Assembly: GCF_000159955.1 (NCBI RefSeq)
Contig: NZ_GG695972.1
Span: 368,393 to 396,497, forward strand
Reading direction: 5' to 3'
DNA: 28,105 nucleotides
From: Paenibacillus sp. oral taxon 786 str. D14
GTDB taxonomy: Bacteria; Bacillota; Bacilli; Paenibacillales; Paenibacillaceae
Part shown: positions 23,404-28,105 of the stretch, piece by piece
Numbering within the stretch: the first letter of the stretch is position 1
How the letters are laid out: the number at the start of each line of letters is the position of its first letter
The notes under the pieces: generated by a model
What the model was told of the DNA's origin: nothing
The model's input: the letters and a program-made list of their open reading frames with translations, nothing else
The model's database searches: none
Made by a program: the position numbers and the translations under genes

Positions 23404-25275
23404 CTACTCTTTCTCTCGGTCAGGCAGCTGCTTCACGTAGCTGTCGCTGAGACGGAGCAGTTCAAGCGCACGGTTATATTCGCTTTCCGTCGTTAACGCT
23501 TGGGTCACACCGTCCTTGGGGAGCGGATACTTCGTACCGTCATCATACCAAACCCCTGGGATAAACAGCGCCTGGTCGTTGATAAACGAGCCGGATGGCA
23601 GATAGTAACGCTGCGGTAACAGGTTGTAAGATGTTTGGTTCAGCAAATCCTCACCAAAATGAATATGATTATCGAGATTGATGCCAAACAGGTTGGCTAC
23701 CGTCGGCAGGATATCCACTTGGCCGCCGACATTGTCCATGACATCTGGCATATCGGTACCCGGCACATGAAGAAGCAGCGGGATATTGATCATATCAATA
23801 TAGCTGTAATCCCGGCCATAAATTTCTTTCATCAGCTCAAGTCCATGTTTGTCCAGCGAATACATTGGCAAGCCGAGATGGTCACCGTAAATGACAACCA
23901 CGCTGTTGTCCCAGATGCCTCTTTGCTTCAGATCCTCGATAAATTGACCGAGTGCGTAGTCCGCATAGCTTTGCGCCCGCAAATAATCGCCAACCATATT
24001 GTCTTGGTAACGTTCAGGCAACTGAATCTTATCCTTGTCATGCGGTGTTGTAAACGGATGGTGAGCCGTCATCGAGATCACTTGAGTATAGAAAGGCTGT
24101 CCCGTTTGCTGCATGCGGTTCAGCTCTTCAGCTGTCTTCTTGTAGAGCACTTCATCCGAAGGGCCAAAGAAGACGGTGTCTTCGGTACCAAACCATTTCT
24201 GGTCATAATAGCGGTTGAAGCCAATCGCTTTGTACAATTCGCCGCGGTTCCAGAAATCAACGACATTCGTGTGGAACGTTGCCGTATCATACCCTTGATC
24301 CCGCATCAGCTTCGGCAAGCTTGGCAGATCCTTGTCCGGATAGTTTTGCGTTGCGGCCTCATTGTACGGAATGTAGAACGAGGTGTTCACAACAAACTCG
24401 GCATCAGAGGTGTTCCCTTGTCCGACCATTTGATAGAAATGCTTGAAATAAGTGTTTTCCTTAACAAGTTTATTCATGTTTGGCGTGACTTCCTGACCAT
24501 CGATCTTCAGGTCAATCAGGAAGTTCTGGAACGATTCCATCTGAATGATGATCAGGTTTTTGCCTTTGGCCGCACCAAAATATTTCGGTTCCGCTGGGAT
24601 GGTAATGCCTTTCAGGTTATTGATTTTCTCTTGCGAGATCTGGTCCTTGTCAACCAGTTCTTCCTTCTTGGCGCTGGAGAAAATCGTGTACGTTTCATAG
24701 TTCAGGATGCCCATTTGCTCGGCCTGTTTGATCTCATTCATGCTGGCCCGGTTCGGCCATACATTAAAGATACACAGCAGCAGGGAAAAGGCGAAAATTC
24801 CGGTAATGACGCCGGTGCTGGCTTTTCTTAGATTAAATAAAGCTTTTAGCTTCTCGGCGCGTTTCTTCCGGAACAACCAGAAGCCGATCACCACGATGTC
24901 CACAAAGATCAGCAGATAATAAGGCGCCAGCAGGGAGAACACGCTGTTCTTCACCGCGGTGACTTGATTCACCTGCTGCAGGGCAGTGTAATTCACGATA
25001 ACCCCATAATATTTATGGTACATAACAGCGGCGAAGAAAATGGCTGTAACGATCAAATTGACGGTTAAATAAAGGCCGATCTTACGTTTGGAGGAGAACC
25101 ATTCAATCAAGCAGAACAAAATCCAGATAAACGGGATTTCCTTCAACAATGGCCCCCAAGCGGGTACTACATCAAAGATAGCCGTCCAGACGAGATAAAT
25201 CTTGAAGATCATAATGACAGAGAAAAAGACAAACGGCTTGATGCTGGCGAGCCGGATGCGATTGAACTGTGACAC
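23404..25275 (-). CDS. LtaS-family lipoteichoic acid synthase/phosphoglycerol transferase
   Basis: 623 residues: five N-terminal membrane helices (roughly 12-170), then a large extracellular sulfatase-fold domain. The catalytic Thr is T289 (GQGNTSDAEF). Metal and substrate residues correspond to the LtaS set: E247 (QMESF), H335 and W342 (HTNVVDFWNR), H406 (TAHHP), and D465 and H466 (YGDHLG). The enzyme polymerises glycerol-phosphate from phosphatidylglycerol onto a glycolipid anchor. The start is GTG at 25275, with GGAAGG about 7 nt ahead. It is transcribed alone, away from the UgtP-like gene at 4577. Whether it is the main synthase, a primase or a stress paralogue cannot be told. Confidence 0.92.
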   Translation of the reverse strand: MSQFNRIRLASIKPFVFFSVIMIFKIYLVWTAIFDVVPAWGPLLKEIPFIWILFCLIEWFSSKRKIGLYLTVNLIVTAIFFAAVMYHKYYGVIVNYTALQQVNQVTAVKNSVFSLLAPYYLLIFVDIVVIGFWLFRKKRAEKLKALFNLRKASTGVITGIFAFSLLLCIFNVWPNRASMNEIKQAEQMGILNYETYTIFSSAKKEELVDKDQISQEKINNLKGITIPAEPKYFGAAKGKNLIIIQMESFQNFLIDLKIDGQEVTPNMNKLVKENTYFKHFYQMVGQGNTSDAEFVVNTSFYIPYNEAATQNYPDKDLPSLPKLMRDQGYDTATFHTNVVDFWNRGELYKAIGFNRYYDQKWFGTEDTVFFGPSDEVLYKKTAEELNRMQQTGQPFYTQVISMTAHHPFTTPHDKDKIQLPERYQDNMVGDYLRAQSYADYALGQFIEDLKQRGIWDNSVVVIYGDHLGLPMYSLDKHGLELMKEIYGRDYSYIDMINIPLLLHVPGTDMPDVMDNVGGQVDILPTVANLFGINLDNHIHFGEDLLNQTSYNLLPQRYYLPSGSFINDQALFIPGVWYDDGTKYPLPKDGVTQALTTESEYNRALELLRLSDSYVKQLPDREKE

Positions 25276-25325
25276 TTCGTTTCCTTCCTTTCCGTAAAAA
25301 CTCCTTAGTTGTAATTAATGCCGAG

Positions 25326-25353
25326 TTTACAATTTTAACACCCCATATATAAT
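25326..25353 (+). promoter_or_regulatory. Candidate sigma-A promoter toward the MutS2-like gene
   Basis: TTTACA (25326-25331), a 16-bp spacer and a perfect TATAAT (25348-25353). Confidence 0.5.
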
Positions 25354-25447
25354 ACATGAAATGGCCGCAAGAATAAAATTAATCAATTCACTCAATTAGC
25401 AAGATATTCCACTTAAAGCCGTATGCAACGCGTCGAAAGCCGTATTA

Positions 25448-25477
25448 TTGACGGATAACGCCCCTTTTTGGTAAATT
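25448..25477 (+). promoter_or_regulatory. Second candidate promoter in the MutS2-like leader
   Basis: TTGACG (25448-25453), an 18-bp spacer and TAAATT (25472-25477). It would start transcription about 50 nt before the seven-codon ORF, the usual distance for an attenuator leader. Confidence 0.4.
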
Positions 25478-25533
25478 AAACGTATTCCTTCTTTTCGGAA
25501 TAATGCTTCGTGATCGAAAGAGGAGAGATCTTG

Positions 25534-25557
25534 ATGTCGGTGAAGGTTCTTAACTAG
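25534..25557 (+). CDS. Seven-codon leader peptide MSVKVLN
   Basis: ATG at 25534 with AGAGGAGAG (25519-25527) ideally spaced, and a TAG stop at 25555. The last four codons lie inside the 5' arm of the long hairpin, so a ribosome on this ORF would keep the hairpin open. That combination is known from leaders of ribosome-targeting antibiotic resistance genes. It is a sequence-based proposal; no peptide evidence is available. Confidence 0.5.
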   Translation: MSVKVLN

Positions 25558-25662
25558 TAATTTCATAGGGACAGAGACACGAGTACAGGAACGTGCCGCT
25601 TGAGTTTTAAGCGCGCATGTATTTTTCCGTACGCTTGTTTCGGTCTATGAATAGTTAAGAAC
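25546..25662 (+). ncRNA. 117-nt imperfect hairpin in the MutS2-like leader
   Basis: The outer stem pairs gttcttaacta (25546-25556) perfectly with tagttaagaac (25652-25662). After a 5-nt bulge, ttcatag (25562-25568) pairs with ctatgaa (25645-25651). Then 13 of 16 bases of 25571-25586 pair with 25629-25644, and an inner stem (cgctt with aagcg, 25597-25601 and 25609-25613) closes a 7-nt loop. I do not recognise it as a known riboswitch, T-box or 6S RNA. It may be a cis-acting leader structure, a small RNA ending at 25747, or a small mobile inverted repeat. Confidence 0.65.
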
Positions 25663-25717
25663 ACACGCGAAAGCATCTTGCAGCTCCCCATTAGCTGCCG
25701 TTATCTTGATAACGATC

Positions 25718-25747
25718 AAGCCGTGCTGTTTTCAGCACGGCTTTTTT
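25718..25747 (+). terminator. First leader terminator
   Basis: Perfect 11-bp stem aagccgtgctg (25718-25728) with cagcacggctt (25733-25743), a tetraloop of four T residues and a T6 tract (25742-25747). Confidence 0.93.
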
Positions 25748-25781
25748 GATTACCCGGATCGGCAGAGAGCGGGAGAAGTAT

Positions 25782-25820
25782 AGGCAAAGGATGGCATACG
25801 TGCGTCCTTTGCCTTTTTTT
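25782..25820 (+). terminator. Second leader terminator, 45 nt before the MutS2-like start
   Basis: A 12-bp stem (25782-25793 with 25803-25814, one wobble), a 9-nt loop and seven T residues (25814-25820). With the first terminator it means transcripts starting upstream must pass two stop signals to reach the gene. Confidence 0.93.
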
Positions 25821-25865
25821 ATTCCGGAAAGAAGGAAGATCAACCATTTTGAAGGAGGATTTCCC

Positions 25866-27953
25866 TTGGAGAGATTTTCGCTAAGTACATTGGAATATGA
25901 AAGCATCAAACAGGAATTGCTGGGATACGCGGTATCTTATGCCGGCCGGAAACGCATCGAAGAGCTCGCACCGATGGTGGAGAAGCGGGCCATCGAACGG
26001 GCGATTGCGGAAACGGCGGAGGCGGTCGCCCTGTACAGGAAGGGAGCCAGTGTCCCGCTGCCTTCGCTGGAAGGGATCGAGCAGGTCGTCTCATTGCTGG
26101 GCACAGGGTATCTGTTCACGGAGCAGGATTTGACGGCAGTGCAGACGTTCCTGCACAGCTGCGGGCAACTCAAGAAATATATGGCTGCCAAAGGCGAGCT
26201 GGCCTGGCGAATCGGCATTTATGCGACCGATTTGCAGGATTTGCCTGCACTGCAGCAGGAGATTCTCCGTTGTATTCGGCACGGAGTGATTATGGATGAC
26301 GCCAGCCGGGAGCTGGAGAAGATACGTAAAAAAATCAGCATCGTCAAAGAGCGGATCCAGAAGCGGATTCAGGCTGTTATGGCTCGTCACGCCTCGATTT
26401 TGCAGGAGAACATCGTAAGCGTACGCGGCGGCAGATACGTGATCCCGGTGAAAAAAGACTACTACAAGCAAGTTAATGGGCGTATGCTGGACCAATCGAC
26501 CAGCGGGCAGACCGCGTTCATCGAGCCCCAGGAGGTGGCAGCCTTGCAAAGCGAGCTGGAGCTGCTTCAAGGCGAAGAGGCCCGGGAGGAAGCGAAAATC
26601 CTCGGATACCTCGCCGGATTGGTCGAACGGGAAGCGGCTGACCTGATTCGGAATATCGAGATTACAGGGTTGTATGACTTTATTTTCGCTAAGGCAAAAT
26701 ACGCTGCGGCAATCGGCGGGACCGAGGTGCAGCTCAGCGAGACCGGAGAGACGGTGATTCGCGGCGCCAAGCATCCGAAGCTGCTGCAGACGATGGTGCC
26801 GCTGGATATGGCGATCGGTACGGATTACCGGACGCTGATCATCACCGGTCCCAATACCGGCGGGAAAACGGTCGTCCTGAAGACGTTTGGTCTGCTGACA
26901 TTGATGGTGCAATCGGGTCTGCTGGTGCCGGTCTCGCCGGATAGCCGGTTTGCGGTGTACCAGGGCATCCGCGCTGTCATCGGGGACGGCCAGAACCTGG
27001 AGCAGTCACTCAGCACGTTCTCCGCTCAGATCGGCGCGCTGGTACAAATCCTGAAAGAGTCGGGCCCCGCTACCCTGGTGCTGATCGATGAGCTGGCGGC
27101 GGGCACCGATCCAGGCGAAGGGATCGCCTTGTCGATTGCGATCCTGGAGGAGTTCGCCCGGAAAGGGTCGACGGTGATGGTCACGACCCATTTCAACGAA
27201 CTCAAGACCTTCGCCTCCCGGGCGGAGGGGTTTGAGAACGCGCGGATGGAGTTCAACACCGAGACGCTGCGTCCGCTGTACCGCCTGACCATCGGGCAGT
27301 CCGGCCGCAGTTATGCGATCGAAATCGCCCGCAAGCTGGGGATGTCCGGCGGGATCATCGAACGCTCGCAGCATATCGTCAGCCGCCAGCAATCCACCGA
27401 TGGCTCTGGCAGCGGCGGTCTGCGTTGGGATGAGATCGTACCCGCGAAGCCATCAGCGGCTGCGCGGGATGCACGGGATAAGGCAGCTTCTGTGCCCGGG
27501 AGTTCGCGAGCAGCGGGGGAGCCGGGGAAAGGTTCGGGAGCTAAGGGACAGCTGAAGCCCCAGCGAGCAGCAGGCTTGAACGGCGGAGGAACGGAGACCG
27601 TAACGGGGGCCGGGAAACCCGCTGACGCTGAGGCGGCAACCGGAGAAGCAGCCCTTCCGCCGTCCCGCAAGTTTAAGGTGGGGGACGCCGTTCTCGTCAC
27701 TTCCATCGGGAAGATTGGCATCGTCGTGGAACCGCCGGATTTGCGAGGAATGGCGTTAGTTCAGGTGCAGAAGCAGAAAATCAAGGTGAACCATAAGCGA
27801 TTAAAGCCTTATCTTAAGAGCGAGTCTCTGTATCCGGAGGATTACGATTTGGATATCGTGTTCGACTCGAAGGAAAACCGGAAAAAGCGCAAGCTGATGA
27901 GCAAACGGCACGTGGAAGGCTTGATGATTATCAAGAAACCGGGGGAGGATTAA
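25866..27953 (+). CDS. MutS2-family ATPase lacking the Smr domain
   Basis: 695 residues. The N-terminal helical MutS2 core (MERFSLSTLEYESIKQELL matches the MutS2 N-terminus) and lever/clamp region are followed by a MutS ATPase domain: Walker A TGPNTGGKT near residue 330, Walker B LVLIDELAAGTDP, then MVTTHFNELK. A 110-residue low-complexity Ala/Gly/Pro linker leads to a KOW-like barrel (KFKVGDAVLV...VQVQKQKIKV) and a basic tail ending LMIIKKPGED. The Smr nuclease domain that ends the 785-residue B. subtilis MutS2 is absent. The TTG start at 25866 is set by GAAGGAGG (25850-25857); an extension to 25746 would run through the second terminator and is rejected. B. subtilis MutS2 splits collided ribosomes; a similar role without nuclease is inference. 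Confidence 0.88.
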   Translation: MERFSLSTLEYESIKQELLGYAVSYAGRKRIEELAPMVEKRAIERAIAETAEAVALYRKGASVPLPSLEGIEQVVSLLGTGYLFTEQDLTAVQTFLHSCGQLKKYMAAKGELAWRIGIYATDLQDLPALQQEILRCIRHGVIMDDASRELEKIRKKISIVKERIQKRIQAVMARHASILQENIVSVRGGRYVIPVKKDYYKQVNGRMLDQSTSGQTAFIEPQEVAALQSELELLQGEEAREEAKILGYLAGLVEREAADLIRNIEITGLYDFIFAKAKYAAAIGGTEVQLSETGETVIRGAKHPKLLQTMVPLDMAIGTDYRTLIITGPNTGGKTVVLKTFGLLTLMVQSGLLVPVSPDSRFAVYQGIRAVIGDGQNLEQSLSTFSAQIGALVQILKESGPATLVLIDELAAGTDPGEGIALSIAILEEFARKGSTVMVTTHFNELKTFASRAEGFENARMEFNTETLRPLYRLTIGQSGRSYAIEIARKLGMSGGIIERSQHIVSRQQSTDGSGSGGLRWDEIVPAKPSAAARDARDKAASVPGSSRAAGEPGKGSGAKGQLKPQRAAGLNGGGTETVTGAGKPADAEAATGEAALPPSRKFKVGDAVLVTSIGKIGIVVEPPDLRGMALVQVQKQKIKVNHKRLKPYLKSESLYPEDYDLDIVFDSKENRKKRKLMSKRHVEGLMIIKKPGED

Positions 27954-27993
27954 CTTTGCGCGGTAGTTAGCCAGGCGTCAGGCATAATGAAAG

Positions 27994-28050
27994 AGCGCGA
28001 GTTTAGAGGTCCGTTTCGTTCGGTCCTTAGGCTCGCGCTTTAGTTTTGTT
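27994..28050 (+). terminator. Probable terminator after the MutS2-like gene
   Basis: Perfect 8-bp outer stem agcgcgag (27994-28001) with ctcgcgct (28032-28039), imperfect inner pairing, then the interrupted T-rich stretch ttagttttgtt. Confidence 0.6.
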
Positions 28051-28070
28051 CGCTAGGGGGGAGATAGCTG

Positions 28071-28100
28071 CAAAAGTACAGTTTTTTCTGTCAAAAGTAC
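28071..28100 (+). repeat. Short direct repeat at the right edge
   Basis: CAAAAGTAC occurs at 28071-28079 and 28092-28100, 21 bp apart (two helical turns), with an acag/ctgt hairpin around TTTTTT between them. It may be a regulatory element for a gene beyond the window or part of a dispersed repeat. Confidence 0.4.
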
Positions 28101-28105
28101 GATTT

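Follow-up and report, generated by a model that had tools for sequence, protein, structure and literature searches.

How is the MutS2-family gene that starts at position 25866 of this Paenibacillus sp. oral taxon 786 str. D14 sequence controlled, and to which signal does the long leader in front of it respond? Within the window, i.e. the whole stretch of 28,105 nt analyzed here, this leader had been described in a first-pass annotation as attenuator-like. The answer considered likely is that it functions as a ribosome-mediated transcription attenuator with 1-2-3-4 logic, which would let stalled translation induce a ribosome factor derived from MutS2. Sequence comparison establishes the parts of the leader (Table 1), their conservation, a set of alternative pairings in predicted folds and co-variation, and a regulon of two genes.

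Table 1. Positions of the leader elements and of the downstream gene in the window.
Feature	Position	Strand	Details
Attenuator leader, whole element	25448-25866		promoter, ribosome site, MSVKVLN-stop, 117-nt stem, two terminators
Sigma-A-type promoter TTGACG-18-TAAATT	25448-25477	+	9 of 12; TG before -10
Mini-ORF Shine-Dalgarno AGGAGAG	25521-25527	+	sequence; conserved GGnGAnAT in relatives
Mini-ORF MSVKVLN-stop, region 1	25534-25557	+	ATG TCG GTG AAG GTT CTT AAC TAG
P1, anti-antiterminator stem	25546-25662	+	arms 25546-25556 with 25652-25662; fold prediction
P1 extension	25562-25569 with 25644-25651	+	continues the P1 core; fold prediction
Region 2, P1 3' arm AAGAACACACG	25657-25667	+	5' strand of the antiterminator
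P2, hairpins between region 2 and T1	25680-25713	+	3' side re-used in P3
P3, long-range helix around T1	25685-25781	+	strands within 25685-25712 and 25750-25781
Terminator T1, regions 3 and 4	25718-25747	+	stem 25718-25743, tail to 25747
Terminator T2	25782-25820	+	ends 45 nt upstream of the TTG start at 25866
Main-gene Shine-Dalgarno AGGAGG	25853-25858	+	sequence
mutS2L, Smr-less MutS2 paralog	25866-27953	+	695 aa, TTG start

Sequence inspection and fold prediction placed the ribosome site, the seven-codon ORF, the 117-nt stem (measured between the outer ends of the P1 arms) and both terminators where the first-pass annotation had put them, including the gap between the last terminator and the gene start. 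The extent given for the hairpin held for the stem and fell short in its reach, as the predicted hairpin extends into the mini-ORF start and pairs 25537-25542 with 25664-25670. T1 is composed of CCGTGCTG-TTTT-CAGCACGG followed by a U-tract. The predicted leader fold amounts to -160.4 kcal/mol in comparison to -102.8 kcal/mol for dinucleotide shuffles (z = -10.3), with 0 of 100 shuffles as good. A simple terminator scan of positions 24500-28105 returned four candidates, T1 among them and T2 absent, where 4.2 are expected, and a simple promoter scan returned three sites where 2.7 are expected, i.e. the chance level if taken alone. Across the leader family, a promoter with at least 9 of 12 matching positions is located within 85 nt upstream of the mini-ORF in 109 of 121 leaders (8 of 121 after shuffling), and the promoter of the window, directly upstream, belongs to the leader element. 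In 104 leaders, 29-34 nt separate the end of the -10 box from the ATG; in the window, whose promoter lies about 25 nt farther from the ORF than usual, the distance is 56 nt.

At the gathering threshold, no Rfam family matches the leader, and the sole Rfam match in the window is a purine riboswitch aptamer elsewhere (RF00167, positions 1892-1991, 72.3 bits), upstream of ORFs at 2161 and 2786. In the predicted fold, the start of the leader (25484-25503) is complementary to the stretch before the main ribosome site (25819-25837). Positions 25505-25520 carry a GCTTCGTGATCGAAAG motif that recurs on the promoter side of the mini-ORF in the close relatives L002 and L004-L007, with up to three copies spaced by about 185 nt in L006; this segment of the window seems to be the remnant of an inserted repeat.

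The leader occurs in many Bacilli and in a few other Firmicutes. The annotation had suggested that the mini-ORF and the stem be looked for in relatives, their absence counting as a refutation, and both are kept there: a DNA search yielded a leader match in 33 of 59 relatives, and the mini-ORF pattern, with up to three mismatches allowed, matched 224 of the 392 genomes sampled from the order. In a class-level sample, 34 of 299 genomes matched, with 18 of 272 outside the order (families f21, f29 and f32). The reversed pattern was found 0 times among the matches listed for the order-level and class-level samples, those listed for the order being about 150 of its matches. Searching named species genomes with the exact pattern returned 83 stretches, 80 of which were examined; the named genera include Paenibacillus, Saccharibacillus, Fontibacillus, Brevibacillus and Aneurinibacillus, together with Neobacillus mesonae, two Geosporobacter (which we take to be Clostridia) and one record titled Roseburia. 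For the comparisons below, 204 loci were reduced to 158 without repeats and 121 non-redundant leaders, 113 of which fall within the limits set for the distance between the P1 arm and T1. L113 and L178 were left out of the leader set for having no 3' arm, and the pattern match L109, with an in-frame stop and no leader, was judged a chance match. None of the papers listed in searches of the open-licence PMC literature dealt with this leader, and the available portions of the uORF4u paper and of an ncRNA survey contain no mention of MutS.

Which genes follow the leader? In all 30 loci taken from the DNA search, a MutS2-like match lies 303-404 nt downstream of the mini-ORF; in L013, this match comprises 33 residues only and meets the contig end. 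Among 161 distinct leaders, with exact duplicates removed, 122 precede the MutS2 paralog (mutS2L), 30 precede a BpsA-like gene (bps) and 9 are unmatched, 8 of these 9 stretches stopping 555-604 nt after the mini-ORF; by eye, the unmatched L184, L186, L195, L199 and L227 show mutS2L-like starts, and L088, likewise unmatched, has what is left of a mutS2L gene. The 80 named loci divide into 64 with mutS2L, 13 with bps and 3 at a contig edge, and share species with the former set, so the two are not independent. One leader type thus appears, from these gene neighborhoods, to define a new two-gene regulon, mutS2L and/or bps. An origin of the stem as a mobile or repeated element was considered and rejected, since the gene that follows, wherever it can be identified, nearly always belongs to one of the same two families.

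The two targets are combined in several ways. Some genomes contain two leaders, and the second class (MSAVVLN-stop, MSGVVLN-stop and others) mostly precedes bps. The peptide class does not set the target: MSAVVLN-stop is found before mutS2L in L055 and L168, and MSVCVLN-stop before bps in L167. In L176, L177, L180, L288 and L308, bps lies downstream of mutS2L. The MutS Walker A motif is absent from 26 bps loci, each covering at least 3.2 kb of DNA; one of their genomes, G002, has mutS2L further on, in the order leader, bps, acetyltransferase, HAD protein, carrier protein, mutS2L. Nine PF01861 matches exceed the cut-off in the 59 relatives; one is a fragment, and of the other eight, five have the leader and three lack it. 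The two canonical MutS2 loci examined (L135 and L136) have no such leader. The leader is retained in L088 and in L124/L057, where only a remnant of mutS2L follows it, and a mutS2L remnant lies between leader and bps in G083. In L227 (G009), the leader is followed, by eye, by a short broken bps-like start and then mutS2L.

The gene had been assigned to the MutS2 family, and the presence of the core and ATPase domains agrees with this; the comparison refines it to a second, Smr-less paralog that exists beside a full-length MutS2. All 29 relatives inspected encode a canonical MutS2 (28 at full length, one in two pieces), and 21 of them possess additional shorter copies, 22 in total, of which 20 match up to positions of about 512-558 of 790 and two up to 701-718. 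By the author's reading, the leader precedes the short copy or its gene run in 21 of these 21 genomes (16 identified in the DNA search; G009, with both copies, G004, G037 and G044 by eye; G002 by pattern and locus reading), and the eight genomes without a short copy gave no leader match in the DNA search. Over about 500 residues, the window protein and the canonical MutS2 of G001 share 40% identity, and nothing in the window protein corresponds to the C-terminal Smr region of the latter; TIGR01069 matches positions 4-515 with 579 bits. In ten of ten members of the mutS2L family, PF00488 (MutS ATPase domain V) is detected and the Walker A sequence GPNTGGKT is invariant, while an Smr domain has no Pfam match at E<=0.001. 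PF01713, which we take to be the accession of the Smr domain, does not occur among the 120 listed of 7,991 homologs, and homologs are annotated just as endonuclease MutS2 or mismatch-repair MutS. The KOW-like PF20297 scores 26.1 bits in the window protein against a cut-off of 26.8, and 0 of the 9 other members match. The family shares a conserved VGD..LG..GIV block, and the structure model predicts five strands at 608-650, with a pLDDT of 77-86 for the block and 71.3 for the whole model, which makes a KOW-like barrel likely. In comparison to Bacillus subtilis MutS2, mutS2L shares the core and ATPase domains and, by prediction, probably a KOW-like barrel, but lacks the Smr domain and the long charged region (coiled-coil-like by eye). 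In the available portion of a study on B. subtilis MutS2, a Walker B mutant was as sensitive to erythromycin as the deletion, and other mutations cost little survival (PMC10897456). A Smr-less form that acts on ribosomes is therefore plausible.

The second target is, from its sequence, a BpsA-like gene in these Bacilli with putative aminopropyl transferase function. The protein tested, from L066, contains the BpsA_C domain PF01861 (146 bits), and a phmmer search against the PDB retrieved BpsA (5xnc, E = 6.5e-22) and, as best match, 2qm3 (E = 1.1e-23), whose title reads predicted methyltransferase. A DPPY motif is present, which could also fit a methyltransferase. The PF01861 domain is shared with BpsA, the N4-bis(aminopropyl)spermidine synthase, while bps has an added cysteine-rich C-terminus (four cysteines, zinc-ribbon-like by eye). 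In the part of a review available here, BpsA is treated as an enzyme of thermophiles (PMC12979288). The surroundings of bps resemble a small biosynthetic operon: a HAD protein, FkbH-like by eye, follows bps in L228 (G002), L066 and L124, with a HAD motif in 5 of the 26 bps loci, an acetyltransferase-like protein lies nearby in L228 and L124, and a carrier protein in L228. The leaderless bps copies L139, L143 and L144 follow, by eye, the end of an apparent non-ribosomal peptide synthetase gene.

To weigh the helices, a swap test was applied in which the two strands of a leader were compared with strands exchanged between leaders (113 rows; 82 for T2). Covariation in the stem, a check that the annotation had named, is evident in the P1 extension, for which the own strands pair with -14.4 kcal/mol in comparison to -8.8 kcal/mol for swapped ones and are better in 113 of 113 rows. 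For the P1 core, the effect is tiny (-12.6 versus -12.0 kcal/mol; p = 2.3e-12) because its letters hardly vary. The candidate antiterminator (AT) reaches -9.4 versus -8.5 kcal/mol (p = 7.0e-8, own strands better in 71% of rows), P2 p = 3.6e-12 (79% of 113 rows) and P3 p = 2.4e-11 (75% of 113 rows; predicted duplex in the window, -20.9 kcal/mol), and T2 p = 3.7e-15. Related rows make these p-values optimistic, and some controls, pointing the opposite way, gave p-values of 0.0002-0.02. When 76 of the 121 leaders were aligned by MAFFT and all column pairs were tested for covariation against a tree-based null, only two pairs were listed, both in T2 (E values of 0 and 0.2); this test was underpowered or misaligned. 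The case for pairing therefore rests on the swap test, on the predicted folds and on the asymmetry between the T1 strands. Two further pairings were rejected: a relay in which the T1 3' arm opens T2 is visible by eye in some sequences and gave p = 0.57 in the swap test, and the start-codon pairing P0 is present in folds and shows no co-variation (p = 0.85). By structure, a T1-like hairpin with U-tract is found in 118 of 121 leaders (a loose T1 sequence pattern gave 202 of 204 matches, at least three of them wrong, namely L040, L080 and L192), and a T2-like hairpin in 97 of 121 by loose and 82 of 113 by stricter criteria.

The annotation had seen no clear antiterminator pairing. This stands for T2, for which the swap test supported none among the T1-T2 gap, the P2 strands and region 2; for T1, in turn, fold modelling yields a good candidate, the P1 3' arm with the T1 5' arm and loop. 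If the mini-ORF is masked in the window, 25658-25666 is predicted to pair with 25723-25732 with one bulged C. In silico, all 113 unmasked leaders fold into P1, and AT (at least 6 bp) forms in 98 of 113 masked leaders in comparison to 5 of 113 unmasked ones and to 215 of 565 (38%) controls with a shuffled T1 5' segment; the fold of 15 of the 113 masked leaders contains no AT, and 8 of the 121 rows fell outside this test by their arm-T1 distance. AT excludes both P1 and T1 in the predicted folds. With T1 identified by structure alone, the 5' strand reads CCGTGCT in 100 of 118 leaders and the 3' strand AGCACGG in 47 of 118; this stronger constraint on the 5' strand is consistent with a second partner, and a hairpin alone would not require the asymmetry. 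A first strand count, whose pattern favored a fixed 5' strand, gave T at T1 position 4 in 111 of 119 leaders and A, G or T at its partner in 74, 42 and 3. Beside the T1 CCG, position -1 fits region 2 in 60 of 81 leaders (shuffle mean 43.7, maximum 58) and the terminator in 56, while position -2 fits region 2 in 43 of 81 (mean 41.5) and the terminator in 63 of 81, a weak contingency test from which 40 of 121 rows were dropped for having no CGG or CCG. Divergent leaders before mutS2L appear, by eye, to keep the complementarity of regions 2 and 3 in other letters: in G004, GAACCCTACA complements TGTGGGATTC, and in G037, GAACCCTGC complements GCGGGTTTC, each with one mismatch. Since T1, once complete, is the more stable structure, with a predicted -70.1 kcal/mol in the window against -56.3 for AT, a margin of about 14 kcal/mol, the switch must be kinetic.

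From these parts, we infer how the leader would operate. Transcription would begin shortly upstream of the seven-codon ORF, which corresponds to region 1. If ribosomes finish the ORF and leave, region 1 would pair with region 2 (P1), T1 (3:4) would form and transcription would end. A ribosome that stays on the ORF, in contrast, would cover region 1, so that region 2 could pair with the nascent region 3, T1 would be blocked and the downstream gene would be transcribed. Time for the ribosome to finish would come from the spacer of roughly 95 nt between regions 1 and 2 and from a pause-like hairpin, which about half of the leaders have. The spacer between the P1 arms measures 86-116 nt in 109 of 121 leaders, and 62 of 121 have a hairpin with a GGTTTATTTG-like run behind it (9.4 in shuffled sequences), located in 53 of these 34-40 nt before region 2. 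A TTNTTT pause motif is found in 58 of 121 leaders (9.5 shuffled) and is absent from L001, the near twin of the window.

The mini-ORFs of the 121 leaders follow the consensus M-x-x-x-V-L-N-stop. The start is ATG in 120 and GTG in 1, and codon 2 encodes Ser or Thr in 99, which would suit context stalling of the phenicol or oxazolidinone type and is noted as a lead only. Codon 4 is free; codon 5 encodes Val in 119 (GTT in 119), codon 6 Leu in all 121 (CTT in 115, CTG in 6) and codon 7 Asn in 118 (AAC in 118), the exceptions being A, I and I, and a TAA, TAG or TGA stop is in place in 118. In one genus, the peptide reads MLVSVLI, MLVLVLI or MLVLVLN, and the arms are changed. Since codons 5-7 build P1, this conservation is no proof of selection on the peptide.

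The same codons could also be read as a metabolite sensor, in which a small molecule such as a polyamine would stall the ribosome on VLN-stop; the six-codon MAGDIS ORF of eukaryotic AMD1 mRNA undergoes a ligand-dependent stall at its stop codon. The conserved codons are the last three before the stop, with codon 4 free, and one target gene belongs to the branched-polyamine-synthase family. By eye, Geosporobacter keeps VLN despite an extra A in the 3' arm, so that selection on peptide or codons is possible. Against this, GTTCTTAAC lies within P1 and third codon positions are near-fixed as well, for which RNA pairing alone suffices; L052, L056 and L070, where VLN is followed by Ser, and L178, with more residues, have a displaced stop; mutS2L leaders with other ORFs exist by eye (MSVLGSK-stop, MSVAGFQQV-stop); and G001, of the genomes compared the nearest to the window, has no PF01861 match. 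Ligand-sensing arrest is thus considered unlikely. More doubtful still is a device in which a protein or the RNA alone would choose between P1 and the antiterminator, with the mini-ORF incidental. The support for the P1 extension, P2 and P3 as RNA helices, and a nucleotide conservation that outweighs that of the peptide, are compatible with this idea, but an RNA-only device would have no need for an ORF with a well-spaced Shine-Dalgarno sequence, a near-invariant ATG, a stop in place and a promoter just upstream. As trp attenuators likewise combine a 1-2-3-4 topology with a translated leader, stalling by uncharged tRNA at a control codon under amino acid starvation could be proposed, yet this is very improbable: there is no run of a single codon, and the identified targets are not biosynthetic genes for Val, Leu or Asn. 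The leader also differs from the trp type in having region 1 inside the coding sequence of the seven-codon ORF. That the tandem terminators do no more than insulate the gene or set free a small RNA, at a low constitutive level of read-through, can be nearly dismissed in view of the dedicated promoter, the conserved mini-ORF, the alternative pairings and the association with two gene families, even though terminators are common and T2 has no identified antiterminator.

Under the preferred reading, a ribosome-mediated attenuator, the outputs mutS2L and/or bps make a response to stalled translation the most likely purpose, with ribosome-targeting antibiotics probably acting as the trigger. A broader proposal, put forward tentatively, is a two-gene stalled-ribosome programme of Bacilli and some Clostridia, in which the M-x-x-x-VLN sensor would activate a stripped-down MutS2, itself acting on stalled ribosomes, and a BpsA-family enzyme, and these would protect translation, the latter through a branched polyamine or ribosome modification. 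If true, genes annotated as MutS2 or MutS would become candidate inducible ribosome-stress factors, as HflXr is for HflX, and the leader would offer a ready reporter for finding the inducer. In addition, a BpsA-family enzyme of mesophilic bacteria would be tied to translation stress, a link absent from the papers listed in searches of the open-licence PMC literature.

Two known systems, each as presented in the available part of its source, come closest to this arrangement. The vmlR leader of Bacillus subtilis shares a very short ORF inside the anti-antiterminator stem, an antiterminator with an apex hairpin, an intrinsic terminator, a pause hairpin and a Shine-Dalgarno sequence upstream of the stem, and its NusG pause can be likened to the hairpin with run, or TTNTTT, of about half of the leaders described here; its product is an ABC-F protein that acts on drug-stalled ribosomes (PMC9226507). 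The vmlR leader adds a hairpin that sequesters a Shine-Dalgarno sequence, whereas the present family has a MutS2 paralog or a BpsA-like gene behind it, an M-x-x-x-VLN ORF and, in most leaders, the second terminator T2. In Listeria monocytogenes, hflXr (rli80) is likewise an extra paralog under a mini-ORF attenuator whose ORF overlaps the anti-antiterminator: it encodes an additional ribosome-splitting factor alongside the homolog lmo1296 of the same genome, its 14-codon ORF contains an RLR macrolide motif, and its induction by lincomycin and its role in resistance to lincomycin and erythromycin are established (PMC6310831). The controlled gene is an HflX homolog there and a MutS2 paralog here, and the best reading is that the MutS2 paralog would play the part that HflXr has in Listeria.
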